Below are positions 440 to 14,993 of a stretch of DNA of 64,000 bases, piece by piece (the stretch's first letter is position 1; each line of letters opens with the position of its first letter). Where the stretch lies: the NCBI GenBank assembly GCA_040752895.1, contig JBFMHN010000001.1, forward strand, positions 1 through 64,000, given 5' to 3'. The position numbers were made by a program, and so were the translations under genes. The stretch is from Pseudomonadota bacterium (GTDB taxonomy: Bacteria > Pseudomonadota > Alphaproteobacteria > GCA-2746255). Under the pieces are notes generated by a model that saw nothing but the letters and a program-made list of their open reading frames with translations, made no database searches and was not told the DNA's origin.

Positions 440-1444
440 ATGATTACTGCAAAAGACGTAATGGAATTTCATACGCCTTCGCCAGAAGAGAACAACATGC
501 ACTGGGCGGAGACCAACTTCTTCGGGTTCTATATTTCGAAGGAGAAACTCACGATCGGCGTTTACAATATTTTTCGCAAGCCCTTGGGCGTCGTTCTTTC
601 GAACGTCTTCGTTGCCAAGGGGTTCGGAAAAGACCCAACCGAATGCCTATTTAACGATTTTCGTGTGCATCTGCCTATCCCGCAGGATGCCAGGCTCGGC
701 AATTACAGCTTGGCGAATGGCCTTCAGGTAAAGGCCCTCAATGCGCCGATGGACTACGATATCCAGTACCGCAGTGAAGACGGCGAGATGGAGCTGGATG
801 TCCATTATGAAGGGCTGATGCCCCCTTATGATATTACGGACCCCAAGATGGACCCGATCACCGCCAAGCGGACGAAGGATCATCTGGCGAAAGCGCAAGG
901 CTTCGGCACGGCCTACAACAAACATTTCGACCAGTCCGGCCGCTATACCGGCACGATGAAGCTTCGCGGCAAGAAGTATGCGATTTCCGAAATCTCGACC
1001 ATGGACCACAGCTGGGGTCCCCGGCCGGAATTCAACTCCCATAACATGACCTGGGGTCATGTTCACGCCGAGCCGGACTTCGCCATCCACACGATTTTTC
1101 AGATCGATCCGAACAAGGACCCGGTCAATTACGGCGAGCTTGCCCATGGCTACGTGATGGAAGGGGGTAAATGTTACGGTCTGGTAAGTGGCAAGGGCCG
1201 TGCGCTGAAGCGCGAGGGCTATCAGCAGAAGGAGATCGAGGTCGAGGTTACGGACGTTCGCCAGAAAACCTTCAGCTACAAGGGCAAGGCCTTGACCGGC
1301 TATCCTTGGCTTGCCTGGCCGAGCGTGTGCGGGTTTCAGTCGTTGAACGAGGTGACGCTGAACGACGGCCGGAAGGCCTATGGCGAATGCCAGGATTTCA
1401 TGAGCATGCCATACATGACGCTGCCGAGCCGGCCAAAATACTAG
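440..1444 (+). CDS. AttH/CrtC-like (DUF7064-type) protein, copy 1
   Basis: 334 residues, no signal peptide or membrane segment. The central motif DHSWG (about 189-193) and the surrounding beta-rich pattern recall the AttH / carotenoid 1,2-hydratase-like fold that includes the DUF7064 group. The block YEGLMPPYDI..P.MDPITA (about 123-142) is shared almost unchanged with the next gene, so the two are paralogs from duplication. Members of this fold are thought to act on hydrophobic substrates such as isoprenoids, but the substrate here is unknown. The start is supported by a strong GAGGAGGAG ribosome site. Its position before a phosphotransfer cluster suggests, without proving, a shared pathway. 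Confidence 0.8.
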   Translation: MITAKDVMEFHTPSPEENNMHWAETNFFGFYISKEKLTIGVYNIFRKPLGVVLSNVFVAKGFGKDPTECLFNDFRVHLPIPQDARLGNYSLANGLQVKALNAPMDYDIQYRSEDGEMELDVHYEGLMPPYDITDPKMDPITAKRTKDHLAKAQGFGTAYNKHFDQSGRYTGTMKLRGKKYAISEISTMDHSWGPRPEFNSHNMTWGHVHAEPDFAIHTIFQIDPNKDPVNYGELAHGYVMEGGKCYGLVSGKGRALKREGYQQKEIEVEVTDVRQKTFSYKGKALTGYPWLAWPSVCGFQSLNEVTLNDGRKAYGECQDFMSMPYMTLPSRPKY

Positions 1445-1657: not shown

Positions 1658-2644
1658 ATGATTACCGAGCGGGATGCCCTGTTTTTCCATGCGCCGACCT
1701 CGAAGGAGGATGCCCTTTACTGGGCGGAAACGAACGCCTGGACCTTCTATCTGCCGGAAGAGGAGATGATGGTCATTGTCTATGCGCTTTTCCGTAAGCC
1801 ACACGGGATCGTACTGACGAACGTCTATGTCGTGAAGGGCTTCTGCCGCTACCCCTACGAGGCGCTGCATAATGACTTTTATGTTCATCTCCCAATTCCG
1901 GCGGGTATCGAGATCGGAAAATACCAGTTAGCCAACGGGCTATCGGTCGAGGTTACGAAGGCTCCGATGGATTACAAAGTGGATTACGTCGCCCGCGACG
2001 GAACGGAGCTGCATTTTACCTATGAAGGACTGATGCCGCCCTACGACATTCAGGATCCCAGGATGGACCCGATCACCGCCGTGCGTAGCAAGGAAGCGCT
2101 CGCTGAGCATCAGGGTTTCGGGACGGCGTATAACGGCCATTTTGACCACACGGGTCATTACGTCGGCGTGCTCAAGCTTCGCGGCAAGACCTACCCGATC
2201 GACAACGTCTCCACCATGGATCACAGTTGGGGTGTCCGCCCCGAATCGCGTTCCGGAAACATGGCTTGGGGAAATATCCATTTCGGCCGCGATCTTGCCA
2301 TCCATTCGATTTTTACGATTGATCCCCGCGCCGGCGGGGCCTACGGCCCGCTCGCCCACGGCTATGTGATGGAGAATGGCAAATGCTATGGCTTGGTGAG
2401 TGGCAAGGGTGAGGTCACCGAGCGGGATGGTTTCTACTCCCGCAGCATCGCGGTCGAGGCCGAAGACGTCCGCGGTAAAACGTACCATTATACCGGCCGC
2501 GCGATGGCGGCCTTTCCTTGGTATTACCTTCCGAACGTCTGCGGCTTCCACACCATGCTGGAATACGAGATGGGTGGCCGGAAGGCCTATGGCGGCGTCA
2601 TGGATTTTCTGCACATGGACTACATGATTGAGGGCCGCCTTTAA
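1658..2644 (+). CDS. AttH/CrtC-like (DUF7064-type) protein, copy 2
   Basis: 328 residues, alignable over its full length with the protein at 440-1444. Shared blocks include YEGLMPPYD, GFGTAYN, LRGK and the DHSWG motif (about 188-192). A ribosome site GGGAGG (1646-1651) sits at good spacing from the ATG. The fold resembles AttH/carotenoid hydratase-like proteins; the reaction is unknown. The separate promoter and preceding terminator suggest the two copies are expressed under different conditions. Keeping two intact, diverged copies implies different substrates or heterodimer formation. Confidence 0.8.
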   Translation: MITERDALFFHAPTSKEDALYWAETNAWTFYLPEEEMMVIVYALFRKPHGIVLTNVYVVKGFCRYPYEALHNDFYVHLPIPAGIEIGKYQLANGLSVEVTKAPMDYKVDYVARDGTELHFTYEGLMPPYDIQDPRMDPITAVRSKEALAEHQGFGTAYNGHFDHTGHYVGVLKLRGKTYPIDNVSTMDHSWGVRPESRSGNMAWGNIHFGRDLAIHSIFTIDPRAGGAYGPLAHGYVMENGKCYGLVSGKGEVTERDGFYSRSIAVEAEDVRGKTYHYTGRAMAAFPWYYLPNVCGFHTMLEYEMGGRKAYGGVMDFLHMDYMIEGRL

Positions 2645-3117: not shown

Positions 3118-3528
3118 ATGACAGTCATAGCCGAAGGATATAACACCTTCAATACCAACAAAAAACCAAGCGGCACGGTGAAATACCTGGCTAGCCCGCA
3201 GGATGTGATTAAGCTTATTCAGGGCGGCAAGCTGAAGGAGCATATCCTGCTGGTTCGGGGCGGGACGACGACGTTCCTGGCACCCGCGCTCAGCATGGGC
3301 GCCATTGGGGTGATCACGATGTCCGGGGCGCCGGAATCGCATCTCGGAATTCTGACCCGCGAATTCCAGATCCCCTGCGTCATGACGGTTAACCTGAACG
3401 ACAGCAAATCCAAATACGTTCCTGGCGAGACGCCGGATTCTCACTTTCAGGAAATCATTCAGACGCTGGAAGGAAAGAAGGTCACCTTGGACTGCAGCGA
3501 TCACGATAAGGGCAGAATTTCTGCCTAG
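3118..3528 (+). CDS. Stand-alone phosphohistidine swivelling-domain protein
   Basis: 136 residues, essentially one PEP-utilising-enzyme mobile domain. The stretch from about residue 44 to 91 aligns with the TSG..SHAA..AR.....V core of PEP synthase, PPDK and enzyme I; His75 in GAPESHLGILTR matches the phosphorylated histidine. In these enzymes the domain carries phosphate between an ATP-grasp domain and an acceptor-binding domain. Here it has neither, so it presumably works with proteins encoded beside it. The familiar TSH.A signature has diverged to APESHLG, so this is a distinct subgroup. Phenylphosphate synthase also splits such domains between polypeptides, but I see no basis to assign that substrate. 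Confidence 0.78.
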   Translation: MTVIAEGYNTFNTNKKPSGTVKYLASPQDVIKLIQGGKLKEHILLVRGGTTTFLAPALSMGAIGVITMSGAPESHLGILTREFQIPCVMTVNLNDSKSKYVPGETPDSHFQEIIQTLEGKKVTLDCSDHDKGRISA

Positions 3529-3605
3529 GGTTGGTTGCCGGGCGTGAAGGGCGTAAACACGAACAGGTAATTCTGAACGCAAAGATAAGCTTGAGGAGGC
3601 ATACA

Positions 3606-5039
3606 ATGGCTGTCACCGCCAAGGCGGGTAGTGAAAAATCCGAGTGGAAGAAACGGTATGAGCCCAACGACACGGGCCTTCGTTTCCAGGATTTGAAATA
3701 CACCGGTAACTTTACGGATCTTGAGCCGGTTCCCGACGGGATTCTCGGCGACCGCATGATGAAGGCGCGCATGCGGAGCAAGGTCATCGAGAAGGTCACC
3801 AAACAAGACGTCCTCAAGGGCGAATTCACGGTCGACGAACTCAACGACCTTAACGATTATCTGGCGTGGAACATCTGGGACGTTCTCGTCATGCGGGCGA
3901 CGGAAGGCGTCTCCGGCATGATCCCGCGGCAGGAATATGAAATGTTGTCCTTCATGCAGGAATTCTACCGTTATCCGGAATTCATGCGGCGGATAACGGA
4001 CGAGGTGGGCGCACAAGGTGTCATGGACATCGGAGCCTCAGCGCGGCGCGAAATCGGCACGAAGGTCAATTGCGTGCACGACTGGTGCCTCGGCGCGGTC
4101 GCTTTTGCCATGGGTCGCTGTGGCCTGCTTGCCTTGGAGGTCATCAAACCGGACGATTATGTCGAGGAGAGCAATACCATCCTCAAGTTCATGCAGCGGG
4201 TCCTGTGGGGCAAGCGGCAGGACGGCTGGATTTTGAACTCCCAAGACCGCTATCGCTGCACAATCCACGAAAAAGACTTTCTCGAATCGCTGGTTACCCA
4301 CTGTGAGAATTTCGAGCCCGGCTCGGAGAAACACGACAAATTCGTCGCCTTCAACGCGGCAGCGGAACTGCTGGCTTTCTTCGACCATTACGATTGCCGG
4401 CTTGGGCTGGGCGATACGGGCCCTTACCAGATGCCGGATGGCCGGATTCTGATCGTTCGCGATCTCTTCGTGAACGAAGATATCTATCATTGGAGCGACG
4501 TCTGCGAAGGCTTGCCGCATTGCTTTACGATGCTGGTGCTGGTTGATCCGGAACTCATGGGGCTTAAGGAAATCCGGGTGAACGATATCTCGACGAGCTT
4601 CACGATCCCGAAGAACTACATCGAGGCGATCACTGGCGGCGCGGTCTTGGTGCGGGAACAGCACGACACGCCAATGGGCGAGGTGTATGCGGTCGGTATC
4701 AACGACATCGCAAAGCATCTCGAGAAAATCCAGCAGGCCACCTTCAACATGTACAAGAAGACGGCGAAGATGTCCCGGCACGAGCTCTGCCTGAACGGCA
4801 TCTACAGCTACTACATCGAAATGATCCTGCCGCATATGCGCAAGGCGGGCATGTACGACTATTTCAACAAGGAACACGATTTCTGGGAAATTGATCAACG
4901 GGTTGCGAATTACTATTACGAAATCAACAAACGCAACTTCGCCCAGGCGACCGTGCCTTTGAAGGTTTTCTCCGGCGCTGGCTATCTGCCGTTCTCGAAG
5001 AAGGCGGATCTTCGGCAGTCGAAGTATTTCTGGTCCTGA
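3606..5039 (+). CDS. 477-residue protein of unrecognised family, phosphotransfer cluster
   Basis: I do not recognise the family. The ATG at 3606 is preferred because GAGGAGG lies 5-11 bases upstream; an upstream frame extension has no such signal. The protein looks soluble: no signal peptide or hydrophobic segment, rich in aromatic and acidic residues. Notable stretches are an HDWC motif near residue 160, FDHYDCRLGLGDTGPYQMPDG near 260-280 and a Tyr-rich C-terminal third (NYYYEINKRNF) ending SKYFWS. It lies 77 bases after the swivelling-domain gene and upstream of the dikinase-like gene, so it may be the acceptor-binding or catalytic partner. A decayed copy exists at 8377-8681. Confidence 0.8.
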   Translation: MAVTAKAGSEKSEWKKRYEPNDTGLRFQDLKYTGNFTDLEPVPDGILGDRMMKARMRSKVIEKVTKQDVLKGEFTVDELNDLNDYLAWNIWDVLVMRATEGVSGMIPRQEYEMLSFMQEFYRYPEFMRRITDEVGAQGVMDIGASARREIGTKVNCVHDWCLGAVAFAMGRCGLLALEVIKPDDYVEESNTILKFMQRVLWGKRQDGWILNSQDRYRCTIHEKDFLESLVTHCENFEPGSEKHDKFVAFNAAAELLAFFDHYDCRLGLGDTGPYQMPDGRILIVRDLFVNEDIYHWSDVCEGLPHCFTMLVLVDPELMGLKEIRVNDISTSFTIPKNYIEAITGGAVLVREQHDTPMGEVYAVGINDIAKHLEKIQQATFNMYKKTAKMSRHELCLNGIYSYYIEMILPHMRKAGMYDYFNKEHDFWEIDQRVANYYYEINKRNFAQATVPLKVFSGAGYLPFSKKADLRQSKYFWS

Positions 5040-5080
5040 CGCGTTACGGGACGGTCGAGAAATAGGGGATGGATCAAAAA

Positions 5081-5113
5081 TGCGCACCGGAGGTCGTCTC
5101 CGGGCGCACTTTT
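5081..5113. terminator. Intergenic hairpin with A/T flanks (attenuator or bidirectional terminator)
   Basis: TGCGC-A-CCGGAG pairs with CTCCGG-GCGCA (5081-5092 with 5098-5108; one bulged A, five-base loop). The stem is preceded by AAAAA and followed closely by TTTT. It could reduce transcription from the 477-residue gene into the downstream pair. Confidence 0.5.
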
Positions 5114-5226
5114 GATAAAGTGCCTCTTGTATTAGATTTTGGTATCCGCTTGGAGACACCGCGGTTGACCATGAAGCTGGCCGCGGCGTTTGTGTTTGAT
5201 AGAGGCAAAAAAGAGAAGTCGGTGAG

Positions 5227-5805
5227 ATGATCAGTGATGAAATCTTTCGAGTACTGAATGCGGTTTACCTTCGGAAAATGGCAAACGTCGAGGCTATTTC
5301 CGAATGTTCCGGTCTTAAGGCCGATGCGGCGCGCACCCTCGTCGAGGGTGCGGTCGGGAAAAGCCTTCTGCTGGATATGGGCGGGCAATATATGCTGCCG
5401 GAGGATGGAACGCGAGCCGTTCTCGAGTATTACGACAAGACCTACGCCCAAGAACGCCAAAACCAAGAGCTGGTGGCTTGGTATGACCGCTTCGAGACGA
5501 TAAACACCCAGTTTCTAGGCTTGGTTAGCGCCTGGCAGTCTGAACAGGGCGGAGACGAAGGTACCCTCGGTAAGCTGACGCGGAGTGTCGAGCGTCTGAT
5601 CAAGGCGCTGCCGAAGGCGGTTGTATTTGTTCCGCGCTATCAGGTCTATGCCGACCGGTTCGCAGCGGCGCTCGCGAAGGTGGACCAGGGCGATCATAGC
5701 TACGTCAGCAGCCCGACGACCGATTCCATTCACAACGTCTGGTTCGAGTTCCACGAGGATATCTTAGCCGTTCTTGGGAAACCTCGCGATACAGTGGAAA
5801 AATAA
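5227..5805 (+). CDS. Small helical protein with winged-helix-like N-terminus
   Basis: 192 residues. Residues 1-65 look like a winged-helix unit (helix, helix containing GLKADAARTLVEGA, then a short beta wing GGQYMLPEDG); the rest is mostly helical with a Gln/Glu-rich segment near 75-85. No nucleotide-binding or catalytic motif is visible. Only three bases separate its stop from the dikinase-like ATG, so the two are almost certainly co-translated. It could be a regulator, an adaptor to the dikinase-like protein or a small subunit; the fold suggests DNA or protein binding, but this is inference. Confidence 0.72.
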   Translation: MISDEIFRVLNAVYLRKMANVEAISECSGLKADAARTLVEGAVGKSLLLDMGGQYMLPEDGTRAVLEYYDKTYAQERQNQELVAWYDRFETINTQFLGLVSAWQSEQGGDEGTLGKLTRSVERLIKALPKAVVFVPRYQVYADRFAAALAKVDQGDHSYVSSPTTDSIHNVWFEFHEDILAVLGKPRDTVEK

Positions 5806-5808
5806 TAC

Positions 5809-8316
5809 ATGAAACCTACCAGCCAGTTTGTTTGGGATATCGCCGACTTAGACGCGGACGATTTGACTCGCTTCGGAGGCAAGGGGGCCGGCCTTGGCCG
5901 GATGGTCGCCCAGAGGCTGCCCGTGCCGCCGGCCTTTGTCATCTCGACGGACGCCTACCGGGCCCACCGGGATGGCGGCAGCGGTTTGCCGGCGGGATTG
6001 GCGGAACAGGTCAACGCAGCGCTTGGCCGTCTGGAGAAGGCATCCGGGAAAAGCTTTGGGGGAAAGGAGGGGGCGCCATTGCTTATCTCCGTCCGCTCCG
6101 GTGCCAAGATCAGCATGCCGGGGATGATGGATACGATCCTCAACCTTGGCTTGGACGCGCATTCCGTTTCCAGGCTTGCTGCGATTTCAGACGATATGGC
6201 CTTCGCCGTCGACAGCTGGGCCCGCTTCTGGAGCATGTACGCGGATATCGTCCTTGGCTTGGATGCGCTTCTGCTTGAGGAGGAGACAGAGACCGCCCGC
6301 AAGGAAGCGGTCGCGAAAGGCACGCCGGAAGCCTTGAAGGCGTTTGAGGCGGCCCTGCTTGCTGCCATCGAGAACCAGGGCGAGGAAGCACCGCCGACCG
6401 AGCCAAGGCTGCAGCTTGACCATGCCATTATGGCCGTATTCAATTCTTGGGATTCCCCACGGGCAAAAACCTATCGCGAGCATCACGGCATTCCCGACGA
6501 TCTCGGCACGGCGGTCGTCGTCCAGACGATGGTGTTTGGGAACCTGAATCAGGACTCCGGCTCCGGGGTTTGCTTCACGCGGAACCCGATTACCGGTGCG
6601 CATGAGCTTTATGGAGAATATCTGCGCGGCGGGCAGGGCGAAGAAGTGGTGGCTGGAACGACAACGGCGGACTCGCTTGCCGATCCAAAAACGCTTGGAG
6701 AAAAACTTACAAAGGAATTGATCGGCTACGGCGCGGCGTTGGAAGATTTGTATCGCGATGCGCTCGATATTGAGTTCACGGTCGAAAACGACAAGCTTTA
6801 CTTGTTGCAAGTCCGGACGGCGAAACGAACGGCGGAGGCCGCCGTGTCGATTGCAACGCAGCTCGTTGCCGATAAGGTTATTGATGAACGCGAAGCGCTC
6901 GAACGTGTCACGGTTGACCAGATAAAACGCCTGCTTAGGCCGAAATTCGATCCCGACGCTCTTGAGGCAGCCCTTAAGAAGGGCGACAGGTTGGCAAAAG
7001 GCATCGGCGCTTCGCCCGGCCACGTGAGTGGCGCCGGCGTGTTGGATTCGGACCGGGCGGCCGATCGGGCCGCGACCGGTGAAAACGTTATTCTCCTTCG
7101 TCCAACCACCAGTCCCCTGGACGTTCGTGGCATGTTGGCCTCTCAGGGTATCGTCACGGGGCGCGGTGGCTCGGCCAGTCACGCCGCCGTGGTGTCTCGG
7201 GCATTGGACAAGCCTTGCGTCGTGGGATGCTCGGATATCGAGATCAATCCGGACGCAAGAACCTTCCAAGTAGCCAGCCGGAAGTTTTCGGAAGGCGATC
7301 CGGTTTCCATTGACGGGGAAACGGGGGATGTATTTTCGGGAATACTGCCGCTGCGTCCCGTGGACGTGGAAGGGGGCGCTCTTGCCCAGCTTCTTGCCTG
7401 GGCGGACAAAGCCTCTGGTGCCCATGTCTGGGTGGCGGCGCGTAACAGCACCGAAATCGGTATTGCCGCGCGGCGCAAGGTTGCCGGTATCGGCGTGATC
7501 CCCTTGACGGATCTTCTCGTCGCGACGGGCGCCATCGCGGGCTTTATTGAAGGCCTTTCCGCCTTTAGCGCAGATGGCTCGGCACCCTCCGACAAGGTGG
7601 AAAAACGGTTTGAGGAAACGGTTTACAAGGCCTGTGTGGCGCTCTTCAAGGCGGCCAACGGGTCGCCGATCGATATACGCCTCCCGAATCTTTCTAATAC
7701 CAAGGCGCGCCGTTTGATTCCGGACTGGTCATCTTTGTCACCGCACCTTCTTTTGCCGCTGGGCGCTCCGAGGTTTGTCGAGGCGTTCTTGCGTATCATC
7801 GCCGCCGCCGCCAAGGACAGTGGGCACAAGCAGGTCACGGCTCTGGTTGGCGGCATCACCGACCCTGGCGAACTACAGGCGTTCCGTGATATCGCCAAGC
7901 GTGTGGGCGGCCTTCACACCGGGGCGGAGCTTCAAAATCCGGCGATTCTGCATTCAGCGCCCGACCTGCTACGGGAAGGTTCCGTATTTTGGGTAGATGT
8001 TTATGCGCTCATCCGTGCGGTGCGCGGCTATCCGGAAGAAATTCTCTATTCGGATGAAGTTTTGGAAGAATACGTGGCCAGTGGCCACCTGAGTCACCAC
8101 CCAAGGTCCGCGCTCGATACGCTAAGCCGGGAACTGGTGCAGGGGCTGTTCGCGGCGGCGCAAAAACATCCCGGTTGTCGGCTCGGCATCGATCTGGGCG
8201 GGACACCTGGGCTTTCCGTCGTGACGGAGCTTTATCGGCTCGGGTTCCGCAACTTTACATGCCCGCTCGATCATTACGAAGGCATCCGGTTATTGCTTGG
8301 CCAAAGTCCAGAGTAG
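5809..8316 (+). CDS. PPDK-like dikinase with a divergent acceptor domain
   Basis: 835 residues, close to the usual length of pyruvate,phosphate dikinase. Residues 1-340 are a PPDK-type ATP-grasp region: GGKGAGLG (23-30), SVRSGAKISMPGMMDTILNLG (about 94-114) and a DSGSGVCFTRNP motif (249-260). Residues about 400-515 are the swivelling domain with His458 in GRGGSASHAAVV. The C-terminal barrel has changed: the GLCRTEHMF-type motif is replaced by GVIPLTDLL, and the catalytic CGEHGG loop near the C-terminus reads GIDLGG, so the proton-transfer Cys of PPDK is gone. Activation of the His by ATP and Pi is therefore plausible, while pyruvate/PEP chemistry is doubtful. Calling it simply ppdK would be risky. 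Confidence 0.85.
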   Translation: MKPTSQFVWDIADLDADDLTRFGGKGAGLGRMVAQRLPVPPAFVISTDAYRAHRDGGSGLPAGLAEQVNAALGRLEKASGKSFGGKEGAPLLISVRSGAKISMPGMMDTILNLGLDAHSVSRLAAISDDMAFAVDSWARFWSMYADIVLGLDALLLEEETETARKEAVAKGTPEALKAFEAALLAAIENQGEEAPPTEPRLQLDHAIMAVFNSWDSPRAKTYREHHGIPDDLGTAVVVQTMVFGNLNQDSGSGVCFTRNPITGAHELYGEYLRGGQGEEVVAGTTTADSLADPKTLGEKLTKELIGYGAALEDLYRDALDIEFTVENDKLYLLQVRTAKRTAEAAVSIATQLVADKVIDEREALERVTVDQIKRLLRPKFDPDALEAALKKGDRLAKGIGASPGHVSGAGVLDSDRAADRAATGENVILLRPTTSPLDVRGMLASQGIVTGRGGSASHAAVVSRALDKPCVVGCSDIEINPDARTFQVASRKFSEGDPVSIDGETGDVFSGILPLRPVDVEGGALAQLLAWADKASGAHVWVAARNSTEIGIAARRKVAGIGVIPLTDLLVATGAIAGFIEGLSAFSADGSAPSDKVEKRFEETVYKACVALFKAANGSPIDIRLPNLSNTKARRLIPDWSSLSPHLLLPLGAPRFVEAFLRIIAAAAKDSGHKQVTALVGGITDPGELQAFRDIAKRVGGLHTGAELQNPAILHSAPDLLREGSVFWVDVYALIRAVRGYPEEILYSDEVLEEYVASGHLSHHPRSALDTLSRELVQGLFAAAQKHPGCRLGIDLGGTPGLSVVTELYRLGFRNFTCPLDHYEGIRLLLGQSPE

Positions 8317-8376: not shown

Positions 8377-8681
8377 ATGGGCGGCAAAGCTTCAAAGGCC
8401 GAATGGTAGAAGCGGTACGAGCCTGACGACCAGGGGTTCCGCTTCATCGGCCCGACCTACACGGGAAGCTATACGGATTTACCGCCGGTGCCGGACGGCA
8501 TTCTCATGGGCCGTCTGATAAATGCAACGCGAGGTGGACGTCCTGAAGGACGAGTTCGCTATTGCCGGTCTGAACGGCTCGAACAATGACATGGCCTGAA
8601 ACACTTGGGACATTTTTGTCGTGCGGACGACAGGGGAGCGTTTCCGGCATGATCCCGCGGTCGAAATATTTCTGGTATTGA
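8377..8681 (+). pseudogene. Decayed, internally deleted copy of the 477-residue gene
   Basis: From ATG 8377 the sequence follows the start of the gene at 3606 (EW-KRYEP.D.G.RF, YTG.YTDL.PVPDGIL, DVLK.EF, N.WD, SGMIPR). It has an in-frame TAG at 8407 (AAG to TAG), a TGA at 8597 (where the intact gene has Trp) and at least two frameshifts. Straight after GMIPR it jumps to the last codons of the family, SKYFWY-stop, so about 1.1 kb of middle sequence is missing. In the intact paralog both edges of the missing part carry the hexamer CGGCAG (about 3925-3930 and 5012-5018), consistent with deletion between short repeats. Confidence 0.88.
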
Positions 8682-8770: not shown

Positions 8771-10012
8771 ATGCATTTAACGGCGAATGCGGAACGTCAA
8801 TACCGCGACGAATGGCTTCTAAAGATTCGGACCTATGACAGCCTCGAGAAGCTGACGGAGATTCTCGTGGACTGGCGTTACAACGCGCGCCCCCCGAAGG
8901 AGCTGAGCGGGGACTACCGCTGGGTGGAGGCAAAACTCGAGGAGCAGCTCGCCAAACTGAAGTCGGAGAAGATGGAAGCCGCTGATCTGCTCACGCGGAC
9001 AACGCGCGGGGAAGCGCTTGATCCGGTCCGCGAAGACTATATGAAGAAAGCGAGCGAGGCGGCCGACATCATTAAGCTCGAGGGTATCGTCGAAGAATTC
9101 CGCGAACGCTATCGTCCGCCGATCATGCCGGTTCATGACTACTTACAGGTCGAGCGAGAACTTTGCGAGATTCTGCTCCGCTTCCGTGGTGATCGCTGGT
9201 GGGACATGAGCGAGGAAGAATTGCGTGCCTACCGGGGCGCGAAGACCATCAAGAAGGAGAACCAATTTGCCCATTCTCTAATGGTCTTTTACCCGGCACC
9301 CAAGGATGTGCCACAGTTTGAGAGGCAATATCTGGAAGAACATGTGCCTCTGGCGCAGAAATTGGGCGCGAAGCTCTTGCGGGTTAATCGCGTTGCCGTA
9401 ACGGTGCCGCGCAACCTGTTGCGGCCGGTTCTCGTCTTCGCCCTGCGCAACCGTCTCGTGCCTGGCAAGCTCATTTCCTTCTTGTTGCCGCGTGTTAACC
9501 CCCTCCGCGCCGCGACCGGCGAGAAGGCGCCCTACCACTTGATTGCCGAGTTGCATTTTAACGATCTGGAAAGCCTTGAGACCGCCGCCGGATCGGAGGA
9601 AGCGAAGACGGCTGTCGCGCACGCCATGAAGATTTCCACGGGCGGAGCGCCCGGTCTCATGATTGTCGAGTCGGACCTAGCCCTGGATGAGGTGTCGGGA
9701 GAGGCAAGGCCGCCGGTGAAATTGATGATCGCCTATCCGCGCCAACTGGACGAAGCGGCCTTCGAGAAACTTTGGGTGAACGAGATCGTGCCGTCTGCCC
9801 TGGCGGTGCCTTGCGAATGCCTAAAGGCCTATAAGGTCGTGGGTATGGCGGATGGCTCGCCGGCGCCGTTCCACCGTATCGCGGAACTTTACTTCAAGGA
9901 CCACGCCCAGTTATTGGCGGTGGCCGGGACGCAAAAAGTCCGCGATGTCGTGGCGCGCAATCTTGGCTTCTCGCCGCCCCCGTTGATCCTTGTGATGGAC
10001 AGCGTCACCTGA
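8771..10012 (+). CDS. Tandem EthD-like (dimeric alpha/beta barrel) protein with helical extension
   Basis: 413 residues. The first ~160 are strongly helical and charged, with no family I recognise. They are followed by two ferredoxin-like alpha/beta-barrel repeats of EthD type: about 168-305 (HSLMVFYPAP...FERQYLEEHVPLAQKLG) and about 310-413 (VKLMIAYPRQ..EAAFEKLWVNEIVPSAL), each ending in a strand with RIAELYF or LIAELHF. Two repeats in one chain would form an intramolecular barrel. EthD-like proteins occur in ether and aromatic degradation clusters, often with small catalytic or binding roles. It lies on the same strand after the phosphotransfer genes and the decayed copy, and probably belongs to the same accessory cluster. 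Confidence 0.72.
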   Translation: MHLTANAERQYRDEWLLKIRTYDSLEKLTEILVDWRYNARPPKELSGDYRWVEAKLEEQLAKLKSEKMEAADLLTRTTRGEALDPVREDYMKKASEAADIIKLEGIVEEFRERYRPPIMPVHDYLQVERELCEILLRFRGDRWWDMSEEELRAYRGAKTIKKENQFAHSLMVFYPAPKDVPQFERQYLEEHVPLAQKLGAKLLRVNRVAVTVPRNLLRPVLVFALRNRLVPGKLISFLLPRVNPLRAATGEKAPYHLIAELHFNDLESLETAAGSEEAKTAVAHAMKISTGGAPGLMIVESDLALDEVSGEARPPVKLMIAYPRQLDEAAFEKLWVNEIVPSALAVPCECLKAYKVVGMADGSPAPFHRIAELYFKDHAQLLAVAGTQKVRDVVARNLGFSPPPLILVMDSVT

Positions 10013-10040
10013 TCCAAGGCGAGGAAGGTCTGGTTGCCGC

Positions 10041-11195
10041 TTACGGCTGAAGGAGGCCGACGAAACGGCGGAGAAAAGCTTCGGCGCGGTGAAGCTGATC
10101 CACCGTCACGTATTCGTTTGGCTTGTGGGCCTGTTCGATGCTTCCCGGGCCGCAGATGATGGTGGGAACGCCGGCTTTCTGAAGGACGCCGCCTTCCGTG
10201 CAGAAGCTTATTTTGGTGGTTGCGTTTTCACCACTTGCGTTTTTTGCCAGCGCCACGAGATCGGCGTCTTCCGGCGCCTTGAGGCATGGGATGTCGGAGA
10301 TCACTTCCAGAAGAACGCCCGTTTCTATGGACCGGGCATGCATTCCTGGCAGAAGATCCCGCTCGATATAGGTGCTTATCTCGTCGAGCAGTTCGCGCGC
10401 GTCTTGCTCCGGCAGACAACGGAACTCGAATGCGAACGCGCAATATTTTGGAAGTATGTTAACGGCGGTTCCGCCCTGGATTGTGCCGGTCGCTACGGTC
10501 GTATAGGGGGGGGTAAAGCCGGCGTCGAAAGGACCTGCGCTGCGAAGCCGGCTGCCGATGGCGCGAAGGCGCGCAATGATTTCGGCGGCGATTTCGATAG
10601 CATTTACGCCTTCCTCAAGGGCGGAATGGCACTCAAGCCCTCGGACAGTACCGCGCAGGATCATCTTTCCCTTGTGCGCGATGACCACTTTCATTTCCGT
10701 GGGTTCGCCGATGATGCAAGCCCGAGGCCGCATCGGCAGCTTTTCGATCTCGGGTATTAACCGCTGAATTCCAAGGCAGCCGACTTCCTCATCGTAGGTA
10801 AAGGCCAGGTGAATCGGGATATTCCGGGCGATCTTCTGTAGGTCCGGCACCAGCGCCAAGACAGTTGCCAGGAATCCCTTCATATCGGCCGCGCCGCGAC
10901 CGTAGAATCTACCGTTCCGTTCGGTAAGGAGGAAGGGATCCGTCTTCCATTCCTGCCCCTCGACCGGCACGACATCCGTATGCCCGGCCAGCAGGATGCC
11001 AGGACCGGCGGCAACTCCAAGCGTCGCAAGAAGATTTGCCTTTTGGCGAGTCTCGTCGAAATGTAGGCCGCTCTCGATTCCAAAGCCGGCCAGATAGGTT
11101 CGGATGAAATCGATACAATCAAGATTTGATTTGCTGCTGATCGTGTCGAAAGCGACCAGTTGTTTGAGCAGTTCCATGCTGTTCCCGATAGTCAT
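10041..11195 (-). CDS. argE: Acetylornithine deacetylase (M20 metallopeptidase family)
   Basis: 384 residues, normal for ArgE. Metal-ligand and catalytic signatures are clear: LLAGHTDVVPV (His72, Asp74), RGAADMKG (Asp104) and TYDEEVGCLG (Glu136/137), with the dimerisation domain between about 180 and 290 and a C-terminal GPGSIEQAHKPNEYV containing the last His ligand. The cytoplasmic enzyme removes the acetyl group from N2-acetylornithine in arginine synthesis. Other M20 deacylases are possible, but the overall pattern is ArgE-like. It lies 29 bases after nadK on the same strand and converges with the EthD-like gene. Confidence 0.85.
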   Translation of the reverse strand: MTIGNSMELLKQLVAFDTISSKSNLDCIDFIRTYLAGFGIESGLHFDETRQKANLLATLGVAAGPGILLAGHTDVVPVEGQEWKTDPFLLTERNGRFYGRGAADMKGFLATVLALVPDLQKIARNIPIHLAFTYDEEVGCLGIQRLIPEIEKLPMRPRACIIGEPTEMKVVIAHKGKMILRGTVRGLECHSALEEGVNAIEIAAEIIARLRAIGSRLRSAGPFDAGFTPPYTTVATGTIQGGTAVNILPKYCAFAFEFRCLPEQDARELLDEISTYIERDLLPGMHARSIETGVLLEVISDIPCLKAPEDADLVALAKNASGENATTKISFCTEGGVLQKAGVPTIICGPGSIEQAHKPNEYVTVDQLHRAEAFLRRFVGLLQP

Positions 11196-11224
11196 CGGGT
11201 GTGCAGCGCTCCTTTTTTTTGATG

Positions 11225-12001
11225 TCAGGGGAGAAATTGCTCCTTTAGAATTCGCTCTTCGAGGTTATGCTCCGGGTCGAAGAGAAGGGTTGGCGTCCTT
11301 TTGCGATCTTCGCTCACATGCACGACCGCAACATCACGAATCTCGGTGAAATCGGCAACGGCGCTTACAGGCCGTTTTTCCGGTTCAATCACCTCAAAGA
11401 CAATTTTCGCCGTATGAGGGAGAAGCGCCCCATGCCACCGGCGCGGCCGAAAGGCGCTGATGGGGGTTAAGGCCAGTAGATTGGCGTCGATGGGAATGAT
11501 GGGGCCGCGTGCGGAAAGGTTGTAGGCGGTACTTCCAGCCGGTGTCGAAACGAGAATGCCGTCGCACATCAATTCCTCGATACGGACGATGCCGTCTACC
11601 CGCACGCGGATCTTTGCCGTCTGGCGTGTTTCCCGCAGTAGGGATACCTCGTTGATGGCAAGCGCTTCGTGTTCGATACCTTTGAGATTTTTTGCCATCA
11701 TCCTCAAGGGACGAAGCCGGATGGGTTTCGCGGCGGTAAGTCGCTCCAGCAGGTCTTCTTCTTCATACCCGTTCATCAAGAAGCCGATACTGCCGCGATG
11801 CATGCCATAGATAGATTTGTTTGGCTCGATATATCTATGAAGGGTTTCCAGCATAAACCCATCGCCACCCAATGCGACGATGACGTCCGCTTCCTCCGGC
11901 GGCACGTGATCGTAGCGCTCCTCGAGGCGGGCAAGCGCTTCCTGTGCGGCCGGCGCTTCCGAGGCAACCAAGGCAATCTTCTGAAATTCCGTCTGGCCCA
12001 T
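11225..12001 (-). CDS. nadK: NAD kinase
   Basis: 258 residues from the ATG at 12001; a TTG at 12031 is an alternative in-frame start without a better ribosome site. The phosphate-binding GGDGFML motif (45-51), the NE.SLLRE region and the [13 protein letters not shown] signature identify ATP-NAD kinase, which makes NADP from NAD and ATP in the cytoplasm. It is placed between the repeat-protein gene and argE, all on the - strand; co-transcription with argE is likely from the 29-base gap. Confidence 0.9.
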
Positions 12002-12132
12002 CTGGAATCGGTAGAGCGTCCTCAAGCACAAGGAAAGAGAAACAGTATATCGAAGTAGCGAAGCCGCGCCAGCGTCCTGTGCTTAAGGCTGGGGAACAGA
12101 GCGCCAAACGGGCGTAGAGCGAAGGAAGGGGA

Positions 12133-14007
12133 TCAAGGCGCGCCGCCGGCCTGCAACAATTGCTGAATCGGCTTATGCCCTTCCCGAAGCGCGAAGTCGA
12201 ACGCGGACTTTCCCGAGAAATCGCGGAGCTTTGGATCAGCGCCCGCCGCCAGCAGGGCTGCCACCGCCTTTGCATGGCCGTTCCACGATGCCCGCATAAG
12301 GGGGGTTAGGCCGTCGTTGTCGCGGTTGTTCATATCTAAGCCCGCTTCTGCCAGCATCTGTATTATCTCGCTATACCCATTGACGGCGGCCCAATTGGCC
12401 GCCGTCATCCCATCGTTGTCGCGGACGGTGATATCGGCCCCTTTCTCGAGCAGCAACCGGACGATTTTCGTGCGGCCCCGCCACGCCGCATTTATCAGGG
12501 CGGACCGGCCTGTATTGTCGAGGGCGTTTGGATCCGCCCCACGGATCAACATCAGTTGGACCGTGCTGATATCGCCGTTAGCGGATGCTTCCCGTAGGAT
12601 CTCGTTCGGCTCGCGCTTGTCCTCAACGCCGGAGACAAAAGGGGCGGGGGCCAGTTGGGCTTCGTAGTGCTTAAACTTCTTGGCTAACTGGCGCGCCTTG
12701 ATAATCTCTTCCACCCGCATCAACTTTTCTAACCTTTCTGCTCCGTAAATTGCCGCTTCGTTGCCGCGTTCGGCGGCCAGGCTCCACCAGGCCAGGGCTT
12801 CGGCAAAATTCCTCTCTTTATTTTCGGCGTTTGCAGCGAGGTAGCCAAGCAACACTTGCGCCTCGACATAGCCGGATTGGGCGGCCTGTGTCAGCCACTT
12901 CACGGCTTCCTCCGGCGCTTGCCCGTCGAGGCTGCTTTTCATGAGGACCTCGGCCAGACCGTGCTGGGCATAGGCATAGCCTTGCTCAGCGGCGTCTTGC
13001 AGGCGAAGGATGCTTTGCACCTGCCGCTCGTTCAGCTCGCTCTTCGGCGCTTTGAGAAGGGCGCGGTCGAGGCGTTGGTTGCGTTCGCGCATTCCTTGGA
13101 GCAATTCGCCAAGCTGGCCTTTTGCCGGCATGTCCTGCCCGGGTCGCGTATGAGCAGCCTTGGGCGAGGTCGGCAGCGCTGCCTGCGCAGGCTCTTCCGT
13201 CGCCCGGGCAACGGGCGTTTCCTTCTCTTGATCGGCCGGAGTTTTCCTCAGGGCTGCCGTTGAAGCTGCGGGTGTTTCCTTCCACGCTTCGTCGGTCGGG
13301 GCCGGCGGCTTGGGCCCCGTGGGCCCTACGCCCAGTTCTAGAGCCTCAATATCAATATCTTCTGGCTTGGAAGGCTTCCGTTCTGCTGTGGGGCGCTTGG
13401 GGCTTGACGGCACTTCCGAAGTGACGGTTTCGAAGAAAGGGGTTTCCCTCTTCGTCGTCTCCGGACGCTCCGTAACCTTCTTTTCCTCTTTTCTGATGTC
13501 TTCCGTTGTTCTGGCGTCTTCCGTTTTTTTCAATTTTGTTTCCGGGGATGTTTCTGCGAGTTCCTTTTCCCTCTCCTTTTCCCTCTCCTTTTCCCTCTCC
13601 TTTTCCCTCTCCTTTTCCCTCTCCTTTTCCCTCTCCTTTTCTTGCAGGTTATTTTCTGCAAGCTTCTCAGATTCTTGTCTTGCGCTCTCCTTTAGTTTTT
13701 CGGCCGTCTCTTGTTTGGGCTTGGCCTCTGTCTCCTTCGGCGGGGTTTCCTTCTTGTCCGGTTCGGTGCTTGGCTCAAGCAGGTCGGGAAGCGGCGCGCG
13801 AAATTCTGGAATTTTTTGCTCTTCCGTGAGGTCGATGAAATCGCTGACCGGAAGCGCGGCGGAATCAATCTTGTCGAAGACGACAACGTCCACCCTCAAA
13901 ACGTCGGCTTCTTCTATTGGGATGGTTTTCACGAAACGCAGAATGGGAAAGGTGACGATAATAAACGGAAGAAGTAATGACAGATGGATGAGCGCAGACA
14001 GCGCCAT
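12133..14007 (-). CDS. Membrane-anchored Sel1/ankyrin repeat protein with EKER tract
   Basis: 624 residues from ATG 14007, chosen because GAGGAAGG lies at ideal spacing; an upstream TTG (14052) in frame has no such site. One N-terminal hydrophobic segment (about 2-25) anchors a long, highly charged Pro/Glu/Lys region like the periplasmic linker of TonB or TolA. It includes six to seven EKER tetrapeptides coded by a 12-bp tandem repeat. Then come Sel1-type repeats (about 335-450; AEQGYAYAQHGLAEVL, AQSGYVEAQVLLGYLA, AERGNEAAIYGAERL) and four ankyrin repeats (about 490-620; NALDNTGRSALINAAWRGR and later). The mix suggests a protein-protein interaction scaffold. Function unknown. Confidence 0.85.
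   Translation of the reverse strand: MALSALIHLSLLLPFIIVTFPILRFVKTIPIEEADVLRVDVVVFDKIDSAALPVSDFIDLTEEQKIPEFRAPLPDLLEPSTEPDKKETPPKETEAKPKQETAEKLKESARQESEKLAENNLQEKEREKEREKEREKEREKEREKEREKELAETSPETKLKKTEDARTTEDIRKEEKKVTERPETTKRETPFFETVTSEVPSSPKRPTAERKPSKPEDIDIEALELGVGPTGPKPPAPTDEAWKETPAASTAALRKTPADQEKETPVARATEEPAQAALPTSPKAAHTRPGQDMPAKGQLGELLQGMRERNQRLDRALLKAPKSELNERQVQSILRLQDAAEQGYAYAQHGLAEVLMKSSLDGQAPEEAVKWLTQAAQSGYVEAQVLLGYLAANAENKERNFAEALAWWSLAAERGNEAAIYGAERLEKLMRVEEIIKARQLAKKFKHYEAQLAPAPFVSGVEDKREPNEILREASANGDISTVQLMLIRGADPNALDNTGRSALINAAWRGRTKIVRLLLEKGADITVRDNDGMTAANWAAVNGYSEIIQMLAEAGLDMNNRDNDGLTPLMRASWNGHAKAVAALLAAGADPKLRDFSGKSAFDFALREGHKPIQQLLQAGGAP
13563..13640 (-). repeat. 12-bp tandem repeat encoding EKER units
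   Basis: Six perfect copies of CCTTTTCCCTCT (plus-strand reading, 13563-13634) and a seventh partial copy. Each unit adds four residues without changing frame, so slippage would lengthen or shorten the linker in steps of four residues. Confidence 0.95.
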
Positions 14008-14058
14008 TCCAAGCCTTCCTCTTTCTCCTGCAATTTCAGAAAGAGAGCGCAACTTGTC

Positions 14059-14262
14059 CTATCTCCCGTCCGGGTTCCCTTTCGGGCGCAGGGTTTCCTC
14101 CGTTATGTCGGCCAGATCGACGACCGCAGCATTGATAAGCACTTTGCCAGCGTGCTCAAAATTAACGGTGATTCGATCTTTGATCACGGATTGTACCTGA
14201 CCGATGCCCCAGTCCGGCCGGCTTGGGTGGCGGACAAAGGCTCCCGGTAGTATGTGTTGCAT
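14059..14262 (-). CDS. DUF3553 family protein
   Basis: 67 residues, the full family length. The pattern PGAFVRHPSRPDWGIGQVQS then VTVNFEHAGK-type strands (here ITVNFEHAGKVLIN) is typical of DUF3553, a small SH3-like or CarD-like beta-barrel domain common in Alphaproteobacteria. Function is not established; similarity to the RNA-polymerase-binding domains of CarD and Mfd suggests nucleic-acid or polymerase contacts. It lies just upstream of the Sel1/ankyrin gene, whose start is about 50 bases beyond its stop, and is divergent from chpT. Confidence 0.8.
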   Translation of the reverse strand: MQHILPGAFVRHPSRPDWGIGQVQSVIKDRITVNFEHAGKVLINAAVVDLADITEETLRPKGNPDGR

Positions 14263-14294
14263 TTCCGAGGCATCTCGTTAGCTTTTGGCTTTAC

Positions 14295-14307
14295 GATTAT
14301 AATAATC
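14295..14307. promoter_or_regulatory. A/T palindrome with a TATAAT box between DUF3553 and chpT
   Basis: GATTAT-A-ATAATC is a perfect inverted repeat in the divergent region. It contains TATAAT (14298-14303) in the chpT direction, 31 bases before that ATG, but no good -35 box sits 17 bases upstream. It could be a -10 element, a regulator site or both. Confidence 0.35.
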
Positions 14308-14333
14308 ATACACCGCACGGGACCGGGGTTGCG

Positions 14334-14993
14334 ATGAGAAATGAGGGCGTGGACACCGACATCGAAATTCATTTAGCGGAACTTCTCTGCTCTCGCCTTT
14401 GCCACGATCTTGTAAGCCCGGTCGGGGCAATCCATAACGGCCTCGAGCTTCTCGCGCAGGACGGTTCCGAGATGGAGGCTGAGGTTCTCGGTCTCCTACA
14501 CAGAAGTTCAGACGAAGCGTCCCGCCGGTTGCGCTTCTTCCGCGCGGCGTTCGGACAGGGGGGTGGCGCTGCTGAAACGCTTCCACTGGGCGAGGGGCGG
14601 GCGCTGCTGGAAGGCTATTTGGGAGGGGGGCGTATCCATCTCGGTTGGCGGGAAGAAGTGGACCCGTTGGCGTCCTTGGCGAATGGTTCCGTGAAGCTGC
14701 TCTTGAACATGGCGCTGCTTGCATCCGAAGCGCTTCCGCAAGGTGGTGATCTCATCGTCGCCGTCGCCTGCCAGGCCGACAAAACAATTCTCGAAGTTGC
14801 GGCGAAAGGAAAAAGCGTTTTTTTCAAGAATGAAACTGTCGAAGCTCTTCGCCTTTCTCTTCCTGTCGAAAAATTGAATCCGCGTAACGTGCCCGCCTAT
14901 TTTCTAGCGCGCCTCCTTGGCAGGTTTGGCTTCACCCTCACGATCGATTTGCATACGGACGCCATCACGTTAAAGGTCGTACACCAACGTTAA
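14334..14993 (+). CDS. chpT: Histidine phosphotransferase ChpT
   Basis: 219 residues from ATG 14334; a longer frame from 14223 would overlap the DUF3553 gene and add non-conserved sequence. LAELLCSRLCHDLVSPVGAI near residue 15 matches the ChpT DHp-like helix with phospho-acceptor His in CHDLVSP, followed by a degenerate ATPase-like domain. ChpT carries phosphate from CckA to CtrA and CpdR in the alphaproteobacterial cell-cycle relay. Its place between the general genes and the chemotaxis operon, and 6 kb from ctrA, fits a motility and cell-cycle control locus. Confidence 0.88.
   Translation: MRNEGVDTDIEIHLAELLCSRLCHDLVSPVGAIHNGLELLAQDGSEMEAEVLGLLHRSSDEASRRLRFFRAAFGQGGGAAETLPLGEGRALLEGYLGGGRIHLGWREEVDPLASLANGSVKLLLNMALLASEALPQGGDLIVAVACQADKTILEVAAKGKSVFFKNETVEALRLSLPVEKLNPRNVPAYFLARLLGRFGFTLTIDLHTDAITLKVVHQR

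Follow-up and report, generated by a model that had tools for sequence, protein, structure and literature searches.

Several described systems come close to the one analysed here in one respect or another. In HpeHI, CreHI, and PpsAB (and the single-chain RPH), the functions are assigned to an ATP-grasp part, a swivel carrying the phosphohistidine, and a substrate-binding part, split over polypeptides and encoded in catabolic clusters with carboxylase and phosphatase genes (PMC12167813, PMC9618137). Their ATP-grasp subunit has no swivel, their acceptor combines a homologue of the RPH substrate-binding domain with a C-terminal swivel, and they phosphorylate a phenol with formation of AMP. VadK of Mycobacterium tuberculosis (Rv1127c; partner Rv1126c) is derived from pyruvate phosphate dikinase (PPDK), retaining the ATP-grasp and phosphohistidine domains without the pyruvate domain, and undergoes ATP/Mg-dependent autophosphorylation at His422 (PMC13400623). 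It is reported as regulatory and without a swivel/acceptor pair. Sterolibacterium denitrificans phosphorylates a tertiary alcohol with ATP by 25-hydroxysteroid kinase (25-HSK), after which 25-phosphosteroid lyase (25-PSL) eliminates phosphate from the tertiary phosphoester (PMC8449060, PMC11061730). 25-HSK is one ADP-forming phosphotransferase, belongs to a different family, and retains <0.1% activity when offered small tertiary alcohols (PMC8449060). In the PTS, Enzyme I hands a swivel-borne phosphohistidine, charged from PEP, to the second phosphohistidine protein HPr, serving a sugar transporter. Finally, some metabolosome loci for bacterial microcompartments (BMC; MIC/MUF types) lack an obvious signature enzyme (PMC8217296).

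We analysed a window of 64,000 nucleotides (the whole stretch of DNA), within which an earlier note had proposed a split phosphotransfer system of four co-oriented genes at 3118-8316. All four open reading frames were found there on the + strand, separated in order by 77, 187, and 3 bp. P0002 (SWV, 3118..3528, 136 aa) is a stand-alone phosphohistidine swivel and predicted phosphate carrier, and P0001 (SUB, 3606..5039) is a predicted substrate-binding acceptor subunit of 477 aa from the ATG at 3606, an in-frame TTG at 3531 being an alternative start that would give 502 aa. P0003 (WH, 5227..5805, 192 aa) is winged-helix-like and a predicted kinase-acceptor adaptor, and P0004 (DIK, 5809..8316, 835 aa) is a predicted PPDK-derived, VadK-type ATP-dependent histidine kinase with its own swivel and a non-PPDK C-terminus. 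Unlike HpeHI, CreHI, and PpsAB, this locus therefore has four parts, two swivel domains, and an extra winged-helix part. The four-gene system and its predicted class of chemistry are well supported by genomics. No description of the four-part system was found in the literature searched, which scarcely covered subscription papers. Downstream on the same strand lies a further, decayed SUB gene (8389..8669), of which the N-terminal ~100 residues are left, spread over three frames (tblastn pieces of 59% and 50% identity in different frames). It is followed by a gene (8771..10012, +) whose product joins a hydroxylase gamma chain of the methane-monooxygenase type to two EthD domains (MeMO_Hyd_G 106 bits, EthD). 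This is the sole such gene in the genome, X/Y/B/C-like genes lie on contig 3, and the same neighbour is present in a same-genus genome (G003); its product is a possible upstream hydroxylase subunit.

In Pfam, P0004 scored 152 bits against PPDK_N and, over residues 425-506, 75 bits against PEP-utilizers, bearing out its description as dikinase-like. The ATP-site residues K25, R96, D320, E322, Q334, and R336 were invariant in 15 homologues and aligned with PPDK. His458 (codon 7180..7182, +; GGSASHAAVV) was likewise invariant in 15 homologues, aligned with the PPDK catalytic His, and is the predicted autophosphorylation site. With 620 N-terminal residues highly similar to PPDK, P0004 might be taken for an ordinary PPDK standing among unrelated neighbours. 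However, the PPDK alignment stopped at residue ~625 (model position 613 of 865), and no C-terminal PEP/pyruvate-binding domain was matched in P0004, this domain being absent altogether in four homologues (L017, L018, L037, and L122). The PPDK equivalog score of 567 bits was below the cut-off of 843, whereas P0004 exceeded the cut-off of the truncated PPDK family PRK05878 (511 versus 456 bits), and a separate PPDK candidate was located on contig 4 of the same genome. On domain content and the separate candidate we rejected an ordinary PPDK, an identity that the conserved gene set and the fusions described below also make hardly credible. Like VadK, P0004 combines PPDK-derived ATP-grasp and phosphohistidine domains without the pyruvate domain and has a small partner gene adjacent, and in relatives on mycobacterial plasmids a VadK-like kinase comes together with a protein resembling P0003; P0004 differs from VadK in an extra C-terminus of ~300 residues.

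The assignment of P0002 as a stand-alone swivel was confirmed by the Pfam PEP-utilizers family (PF00391, 36 bits against a cut-off of 23). The profile of its relatives matched the PEP synthase swivel at the latter's catalytic His, and Ser74-His75-Leu76 was invariant in 22 divergent homologues, down to 24% identity. His75 (codon 3340..3342, +; ESHLG motif) is thus a predicted phospho-accepting residue by its invariance, and with His458 it makes up the two sites that had been proposed earlier. P0003 had no Pfam match. Its winged-helix-like character drew indirect support, namely the NCBI annotation of homologues as 'MarR family' and a weak TrmB helix-turn-helix match in a fused homologue. The WH gene adjoins the kinase gene and is fused to SUB in L017, L036, L113, L114, L115, and L117. 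From this arrangement WH is a predicted adaptor between kinase and acceptor, and it could be a regulator instead.

P0001 proved as family-less as had been claimed, its sequence having no match in Pfam, NCBIfam, or PDB; sequence matches to EF-Tu, LCB1, and GORK were dismissed as noise (E > 0.05). Its AF2 model was of high quality (pLDDT 90.5, pTM 0.91), and conserved residues comprised R265, G272-P273-Y274, and R285. With this model Foldseek found nothing in the PDB at E<=0.001, and RPH was absent; run in this way, DUF7065 reached E 3e-13. Since P0001 had no PDB fold match, an RPH/HpeH-type acceptor was ruled out as its identity. We therefore agree with the earlier note that the parts differ from those of phenylphosphate synthase: the acceptor fold is not RPH/HpeH-like, the swivel is N-terminal in fusions, and the kinase part is PPDK-like with a swivel of its own.

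We found 186 relatives of P0001 in several phyla, and the four-gene set occurred in many soil and pollutant-degrading bacteria. Counted over 56 close loci with adequate flank, the SWV-SUB-WH-DIK order and strand were kept in 52, and SWV-SUB-WH was a single protein in five genomes (L036, L113, L114, L115, and L117), so that the co-occurrence of the genes, on which the earlier proposal depended, was observed. This conservation of gene order is far beyond chance. Gene calls in the loci of high-GC relatives were set by cross-locus similarity and codon usage. A viral origin was ruled out, since viral contigs held no relatives and the P0001 model had no viral fold match. Further fusions joined SWV to SUB (L037) and SUB to WH (L017). 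Plasmids of R. oxybenzonivorans and R. pyridinivorans carried three SWV-SUB modules with one WH-DIK pair alongside, and multiple modules with a single pair indicate a shared donor kinase. The window's genome has two SUB genes, the second paralogue lying elsewhere, but one stand-alone SWV.

These arrangements also bear on how phosphate would reach the acceptor. The same dikinase could operate without a relay, the P0004 swivel acting directly on the P0001-bound substrate with P0002 as a regulatory carrier or an alternative one. In another version, P0002 would be charged directly at the ATP site and the P0004 swivel would be vestigial. Direct charging of a swivel is within the capacity of ATP-grasp domains of the PPDK type, and HpeI charges a swivel located on another chain (PMC12167813). 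But His75 and His458 are both invariant across divergent families, and in the fusions the N-terminal swivel is joined to SUB and not to DIK, and we regard operation without a relay as unlikely, though still a serious contender. It is a sub-variant of the four-part dikinase that we favour, and its probability overlaps with that of the latter. Transfer from the His of one swivel domain to that of another is without precedent among the systems checked, which counts against a relay. The proposed handover resembles that from PTS Enzyme I to HPr, but here the donor would be ATP and not PEP, the second carrier is a swivel and not HPr, and no sugar transporter is present.

The conserved unit is wider than the four genes of the earlier note and takes in upstream DUF7065 genes. 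Two copies of DUF7065/DUF7064 precede the block on the + strand, at 440..1444 (over the Pfam cut-off) and 1658..2644 (identified by Pfam; 56% identical to copy 1), with a terminator-like hairpin at 1495-1528 between them. The AF2 model of copy 1 (pLDDT 91.8) contained the beta-barrel fold of 25-PSL, which was the best PDB match in Foldseek (E 3e-13, prob 1.00, TM 0.65); this fold type also covers hydratases and Diels-Alderases. Sequence profiles of DUF7065 and 25-PSL aligned with E 2.1, limited to a D-x-SWG-x-R motif. Because this profile match was not significant, lyase activity rests on the fold, by which DUF7065 is a predicted phosphoester lyase partner. A DUF7065 homologue was near the four-gene system in 49 of the 56 loci and a HAD phosphatase in 50; a search of the window's genome for the phosphatase, run without a positive control, found no homologue. 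Phosphorylation followed by elimination, as predicted here, would parallel 25-HSK and 25-PSL, with a four-part dikinase in place of the single ADP-forming kinase.

Genes for alcohol or aldehyde oxidation, or for microcompartments, also lie next to the system. The L108 operon reads ALDH-ADH-AMP ligase-DUF7065-HAD-SWV-SUB-WH-DIK, followed by 3-methylcrotonyl-CoA carboxylase (MCC) beta, hydratase, biotin carboxylase, and HMG-CoA lyase, and L081 and L028 have similar gene sets. Geranyl-CoA carboxylase was rejected in favour of MCC, the L108 beta chain scoring 1065 bits to MCC (3u9r) versus 480 bits. The window's genome has an MCC-like cluster beside its second SUB gene, with 584 bits for MCC versus 423 for geranyl-CoA carboxylase and a propionyl-CoA carboxylase beta chain (9tps) at 590 bits, close to the MCC score. 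Within the flanks covered, MCC clusters adjoin few loci only. Many relatives adjoin BMC-H, EutN, BMC-T, AldDH, and EutJ-like genes; BMC-H was near 47/69 close relatives, and the AldDH of the BMC loci was of the CoA-acylating type. On the plasmid of Methylibium petroleiphilum PM1, the system genes lie beside microcompartment and 2-hydroxyisobutyryl-CoA-mutase-type genes. The window's genome had no BMC shell genes (PF00936), with controls positive.

In five distant members (L017, L018, L029, L037, and L040), genes for biotin carrier, biotin carboxylase, and carboxyltransferase follow instead, and in some also Y_phosphatase3 genes. This Hpe-like setting (PMC9618137) would fit phenol/ketone activation as in HpeHI, CreHI, and PpsAB, with a phenolic acceptor that is then carboxylated. 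But these carboxylase genes are missing from the window's subfamily, P0001 has another fold, and DUF7065 better suits a tertiary phosphoester, which leaves phenol activation improbable for the system as a whole; it is plausible for the distant subfamily only, whose biotin-carboxylase-type clusters must have another substrate.

The earlier note had left undecided whether a small molecule or a protein is phosphorylated. P0004 might be a VadK-like kinase that modulates or phosphorylates metabolic enzymes, with P0001-P0003 as regulatory adaptors and no small molecule phosphorylated. Its PRK05878 score and resemblance to VadK, a reported regulatory histidine kinase that interacts with methylcitrate-cycle enzymes (PMC13400623), would agree with this, as would the MarR annotation of P0003-like proteins. 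However, the clusters around the set are catabolic and also encode a protein of phosphoester-lyase fold as well as a HAD phosphatase, one kinase is common to multiple acceptor modules, and many loci already have a dedicated PucR/GAF regulator. We consider protein-directed regulation improbable too, if marginally less so than phenol activation. The lyase-fold neighbour, the HAD phosphatase, and the oxidation and microcompartment genes favour a small tertiary alcohol over a protein acceptor, the ATP-driven phosphorylation itself being retained as a prediction.

Together, our results led us to a favoured explanation that we hold with some confidence, in which a four-part His-to-His relay dikinase phosphorylates a small, hard-to-degrade and probably tertiary alcohol and the DUF7065 lyase expels the phosphate. 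ATP would be bound in the ATP-grasp domain of P0004, and His458 of its own swivel would be phosphorylated, as in VadK. The phosphoryl group would pass from His458 to His75 of the separate swivel P0002, which would deliver it to the alcohol bound on P0001, with P0003 joining kinase and acceptor. The phosphoester formed would be a high-energy one, and its alcohol small and tertiary, probably C5 and isoprenoid-like, with 2-methyl-3-buten-2-ol or a related branched alcohol as the candidate substrate. The DUF7065 protein would then expel phosphate to give an alkene and/or an allylic product of rearrangement, which may be oxidised via an aldehyde to 3-methylcrotonyl-CoA or a similar product. We infer the relay and its direction, the adaptor role of WH, the small-molecule acceptor, the lyase activity, and the substrate identity. 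Since the transfer potential of tertiary phosphoesters is slightly above that of the ATP beta,gamma bond (PMC8449060), an AMP-forming dikinase would make sense.

A broader proposal is more tentative, and we rate it somewhat below an even chance. A two-His relay from ATP through the kinase swivel to the free swivel would charge interchangeable new-fold acceptors that phosphorylate tertiary alcohols. With DUF7065 this would form a general ATP-dependent machine for the dehydration or rearrangement of small tertiary alcohols, supplying the missing aldehyde-generating module of a cryptic BMC class and 2-methyl-3-buten-2-ol isomerisation in fuel-ether degraders. The enzymes isomerising this alcohol in M. 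petroleiphilum PM1 were called uncharacterised in 2016 (PMC4791888). For microcompartments without an obvious aldehyde-generating enzyme (PMC8217296), the system suggests a signature module, one that would begin with phosphorylation of a tertiary alcohol. On a mycobacterial plasmid, a VadK-like kinase and its partner, a relative of P0003, are accompanied by a swivel protein and a member of DUF7065, and this pairing offers a new view on VadK. The analysis also gives a function hypothesis for the P0001, P0003, and DUF7065 families, whose members many genomes label 'hypothetical', 'MarR regulator', or similar, the kinase being mislabelled 'pyruvate phosphate dikinase'. The system is a concrete candidate for the bacterial activation of small tertiary alcohols, such as fuel-ether products and plant hemiterpenes.

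Four genes of the window were read in one orientation across 3118-8316. SWV (P0002, 3118-3528, + strand) is a lone PEP-utilizers swivel domain. SUB (P0001, 3606-5039, +) and the winged-helix-like WH (P0003, 5227-5805, +) matched no Pfam or NCBIfam family. DIK (P0004, 5809-8316, +), a PPDK-derived kinase separated from WH by 3 bp, carries PPDK_N and the second PEP-utilizers domain of the set. Upstream of SWV were two DUF7065/DUF7064 genes on the same strand (440-1444 and 1658-2644; 56% identical). A strong terminator-like hairpin of 14 pairs (1495-1528) separated these copies, and the first may therefore be transcribed apart from the remaining genes. Downstream of DIK, on the + strand, was a decayed remnant of another SUB gene (8389-8669). 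This remnant and one in Methylibium PM1 (13639-13953 of its locus) cover the N-terminal ~100 residues, with another SUB copy elsewhere in each, which suggests repeated duplication and loss of the SUB gene. Further along, the long protein encoded at 12133-14052 is, by eye, TonB/TolA-like, has charged repeats, and is Sel1/ankyrin-like at its C-terminus; beyond it, genes of chemotaxis and flagellar type extend to ~62 kb.

A genome scan found 186 SUB relatives, of which 80 were retained; hosts included Pseudonocardia, Amycolatopsis, Actinomycetospora, Rhodococcus, Gordonia, Bradyrhizobium, Paraburkholderia, Methylocella, Xanthobacter, Variovorax, and Pseudomonas. The earlier note had grouped the four co-oriented genes, and this grouping was borne out: the order SWV-SUB-WH-DIK on a single strand was kept in 52 of the 56 close-subfamily loci with sufficient flank, distant SUB subfamilies retained all four parts, and fusions united precisely those parts. 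SWV, SUB, and WH formed a single polypeptide in Rhodococcus opacus B4 and four other loci (L113, L114, L115, and L117), SWV was fused to SUB in R. oxybenzonivorans, and SUB to WH in L017. The four genes are thus a unit. In R. opacus B4 (L036, 6390-11738), two APH/ecdysteroid-kinase-like genes and a tyrosine-phosphatase-like gene flanked the fusion gene; these kinases might have a role in the same pathway. A DUF7065-HAD-SWV-SUB run was also seen on a contig labelled as a Klebsiella pneumoniae MAG (L099), which was probably mis-binned.

The DIK family comprises truncated PPDKs (PRK05878). Alignment of DIK with PPDK was confined to its first ~620 residues, the pyruvate domain being replaced or absent, and a separate PPDK candidate was located on contig 4 of the same genome. 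K25, R96, D320, E322, Q334, R336, and His458 of DIK were invariant in 15 homologues; the first six we take to be the PPDK ATP-site equivalents. His75 of SWV was invariant in 22 homologues and corresponded in the alignment to PEP synthase's catalytic His. Judged by this conservation, the two phospho-accepting His sites proposed earlier are probably correct. VadK of M. tuberculosis, likewise a truncated PPDK, autophosphorylates at His422, and its operon includes a small partner gene, Rv1126c (PMC13400623). DIK is a relative of VadK, and the window's system has additional parts. On a Mycobacterium branderi plasmid (L122, 6298-11282), a VadK-like kinase and a WH relative adjoined a DUF7065 relative and a PEP-utilizing enzyme whose swivel is C-terminal. 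This gene content hints that a small-molecule phosphotransfer chain may be supplied by VadK-type kinases as well.

SUB was modeled with AlphaFold2 from 44 sequences (pLDDT 90.5, pTM 0.91). The model had no PDB match at E<=0.001 (best TM-scores ~0.1) and no match among viral models, while the same library returned E 3e-13 for DUF7065. Since the library demonstrably works, SUB was ruled out as an RPH-type acceptor, the type to which HpeH was matched (PMC12167813), and on the model its fold appears new. Judged from its genes, the system would work like the small-molecule dikinases RPH, PpsAB, and HpeHI. However, SUB does not have the acceptor fold of the two-component dikinases, and their ATP-grasp subunit is swivel-less, whereas DIK has its own swivel. 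The system is therefore outside that family, in line with the earlier claim that its parts differ from those of known multi-part dikinases. A search of open-access papers found no description of the four-part system. WH stays beside DIK, and at other loci it is part of a SUB fusion, which suggests an adaptor role for it.

DUF7065 was near 49 of the 56 loci. The top PDB matches of its model (pLDDT 91.8) were 25-phosphosteroid lyase (25-PSL; 9fzn, 9g4c, and 9g2i; TM 0.65), followed by kievitone hydratase and AttH; the predicted connection is structural, sequence comparison with 25-PSL not being significant. 25-PSL removes phosphate from a kinase-made tertiary steroid phosphoester (PMC8449060, PMC11061730), whose phosphoryl transfer potential slightly exceeds that of the ATP beta,gamma bond (PMC8449060). 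An AMP-forming dikinase would give extra drive for such an ester. The predicted chemistry resembles that of the 25-hydroxysteroid kinase/25-PSL pair, the kinase being of another type. We propose that ATP charges His458 of DIK, that the phosphoryl group would pass to His75 of SWV, most plausibly in this direction, and then to an alcohol held by SUB, and that DUF7065, a predicted lyase, would expel the phosphate. A common charging unit with interchangeable acceptors fits the module counts: R. oxybenzonivorans and R. pyridinivorans each had a single WH-DIK pair next to three SWV-SUB modules, and the window's genome had two SUB genes and one stand-alone SWV. On both Rhodococcus plasmids (L037 and L040), the modules were accompanied by a BCCP/biotin carboxylase/carboxyltransferase set, joined in L037 by a thiolase and Y_phosphatase3; apparently this is a related pathway with a different substrate. 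Clusters of the biotin-carboxylase type also occur in genomes of the class to which the window's organism belongs.

A HAD phosphatase was near in 50 of the 56 loci, comparable to HpeD in the Hpe pathway (PMC9618137). Microcompartment (BMC) genes were near many of the 69 close loci, counted at bit-score thresholds of our choosing: BMC-H in 47, EutN in 44, and a CoA-acylating-type aldehyde dehydrogenase in 40. The window's genome yielded no BMC genes and, in a search without a positive control, no HAD homologue; the pathway in this genome therefore deviates in its details from that of most loci. Besides the BMC type, a second kind of downstream gene set recurred, made up of Zn-alcohol dehydrogenase, aldehyde dehydrogenase, and AMP ligase (L041-L043, L054, L085, L108, and L028). 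In Pseudomonas sp. NFACC02 (L108), the same run extended into 3-methylcrotonyl-CoA carboxylase (MCC), LiuC/AtuE-type hydratase, biotin carboxylase, and HMG-CoA lyase, with comparable gene sets in L081 and L028. The second SUB gene of the window's genome (66% identical) adjoined an MCC-like carboxylase cluster on contig 5, with HMG-CoA lyase encoded elsewhere. This paralogue (within 9691-14373; L014, L132) had no SWV, WH, or DIK of its own, and was flanked by an OYE-like reductase with acyl-CoA dehydrogenases on one side and TetR-MccB-crotonase-MccA on the other. Methylibium petroleiphilum PM1 had a full BMC locus with DUF7065, HAD, DIK, and a truncated SUB, and its plasmid carried DUF7065, SUB, SWV, and WH beside 2-hydroxyisobutyryl-CoA-mutase-type genes. 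In PM1, 2-methyl-3-buten-2-ol is presumed to be isomerised to prenol, the enzymes being uncharacterised (PMC4791888). The lyase-fold neighbour, the phosphatase, the downstream genes, and the PM1 context together make a small tertiary alcohol, probably C5, our best guess for the substrate, and the SUB subfamilies must differ from one another in substrate.

The sole methane-monooxygenase gamma-chain gene of the window's genome, fused to EthD domains (8771-10012, +), adjoined the four-gene set downstream of DIK, far from the X, Y, B, and C-like monooxygenase genes on contig 3 (344406-348908). Two more similar diiron monooxygenase alpha genes were near contig ends (contigs C2 and C6). With the gamma chain beside the set and the other subunits on contig 3, a hydroxylase producing the alcohol may be linked in this organism to the kinase that activates it.
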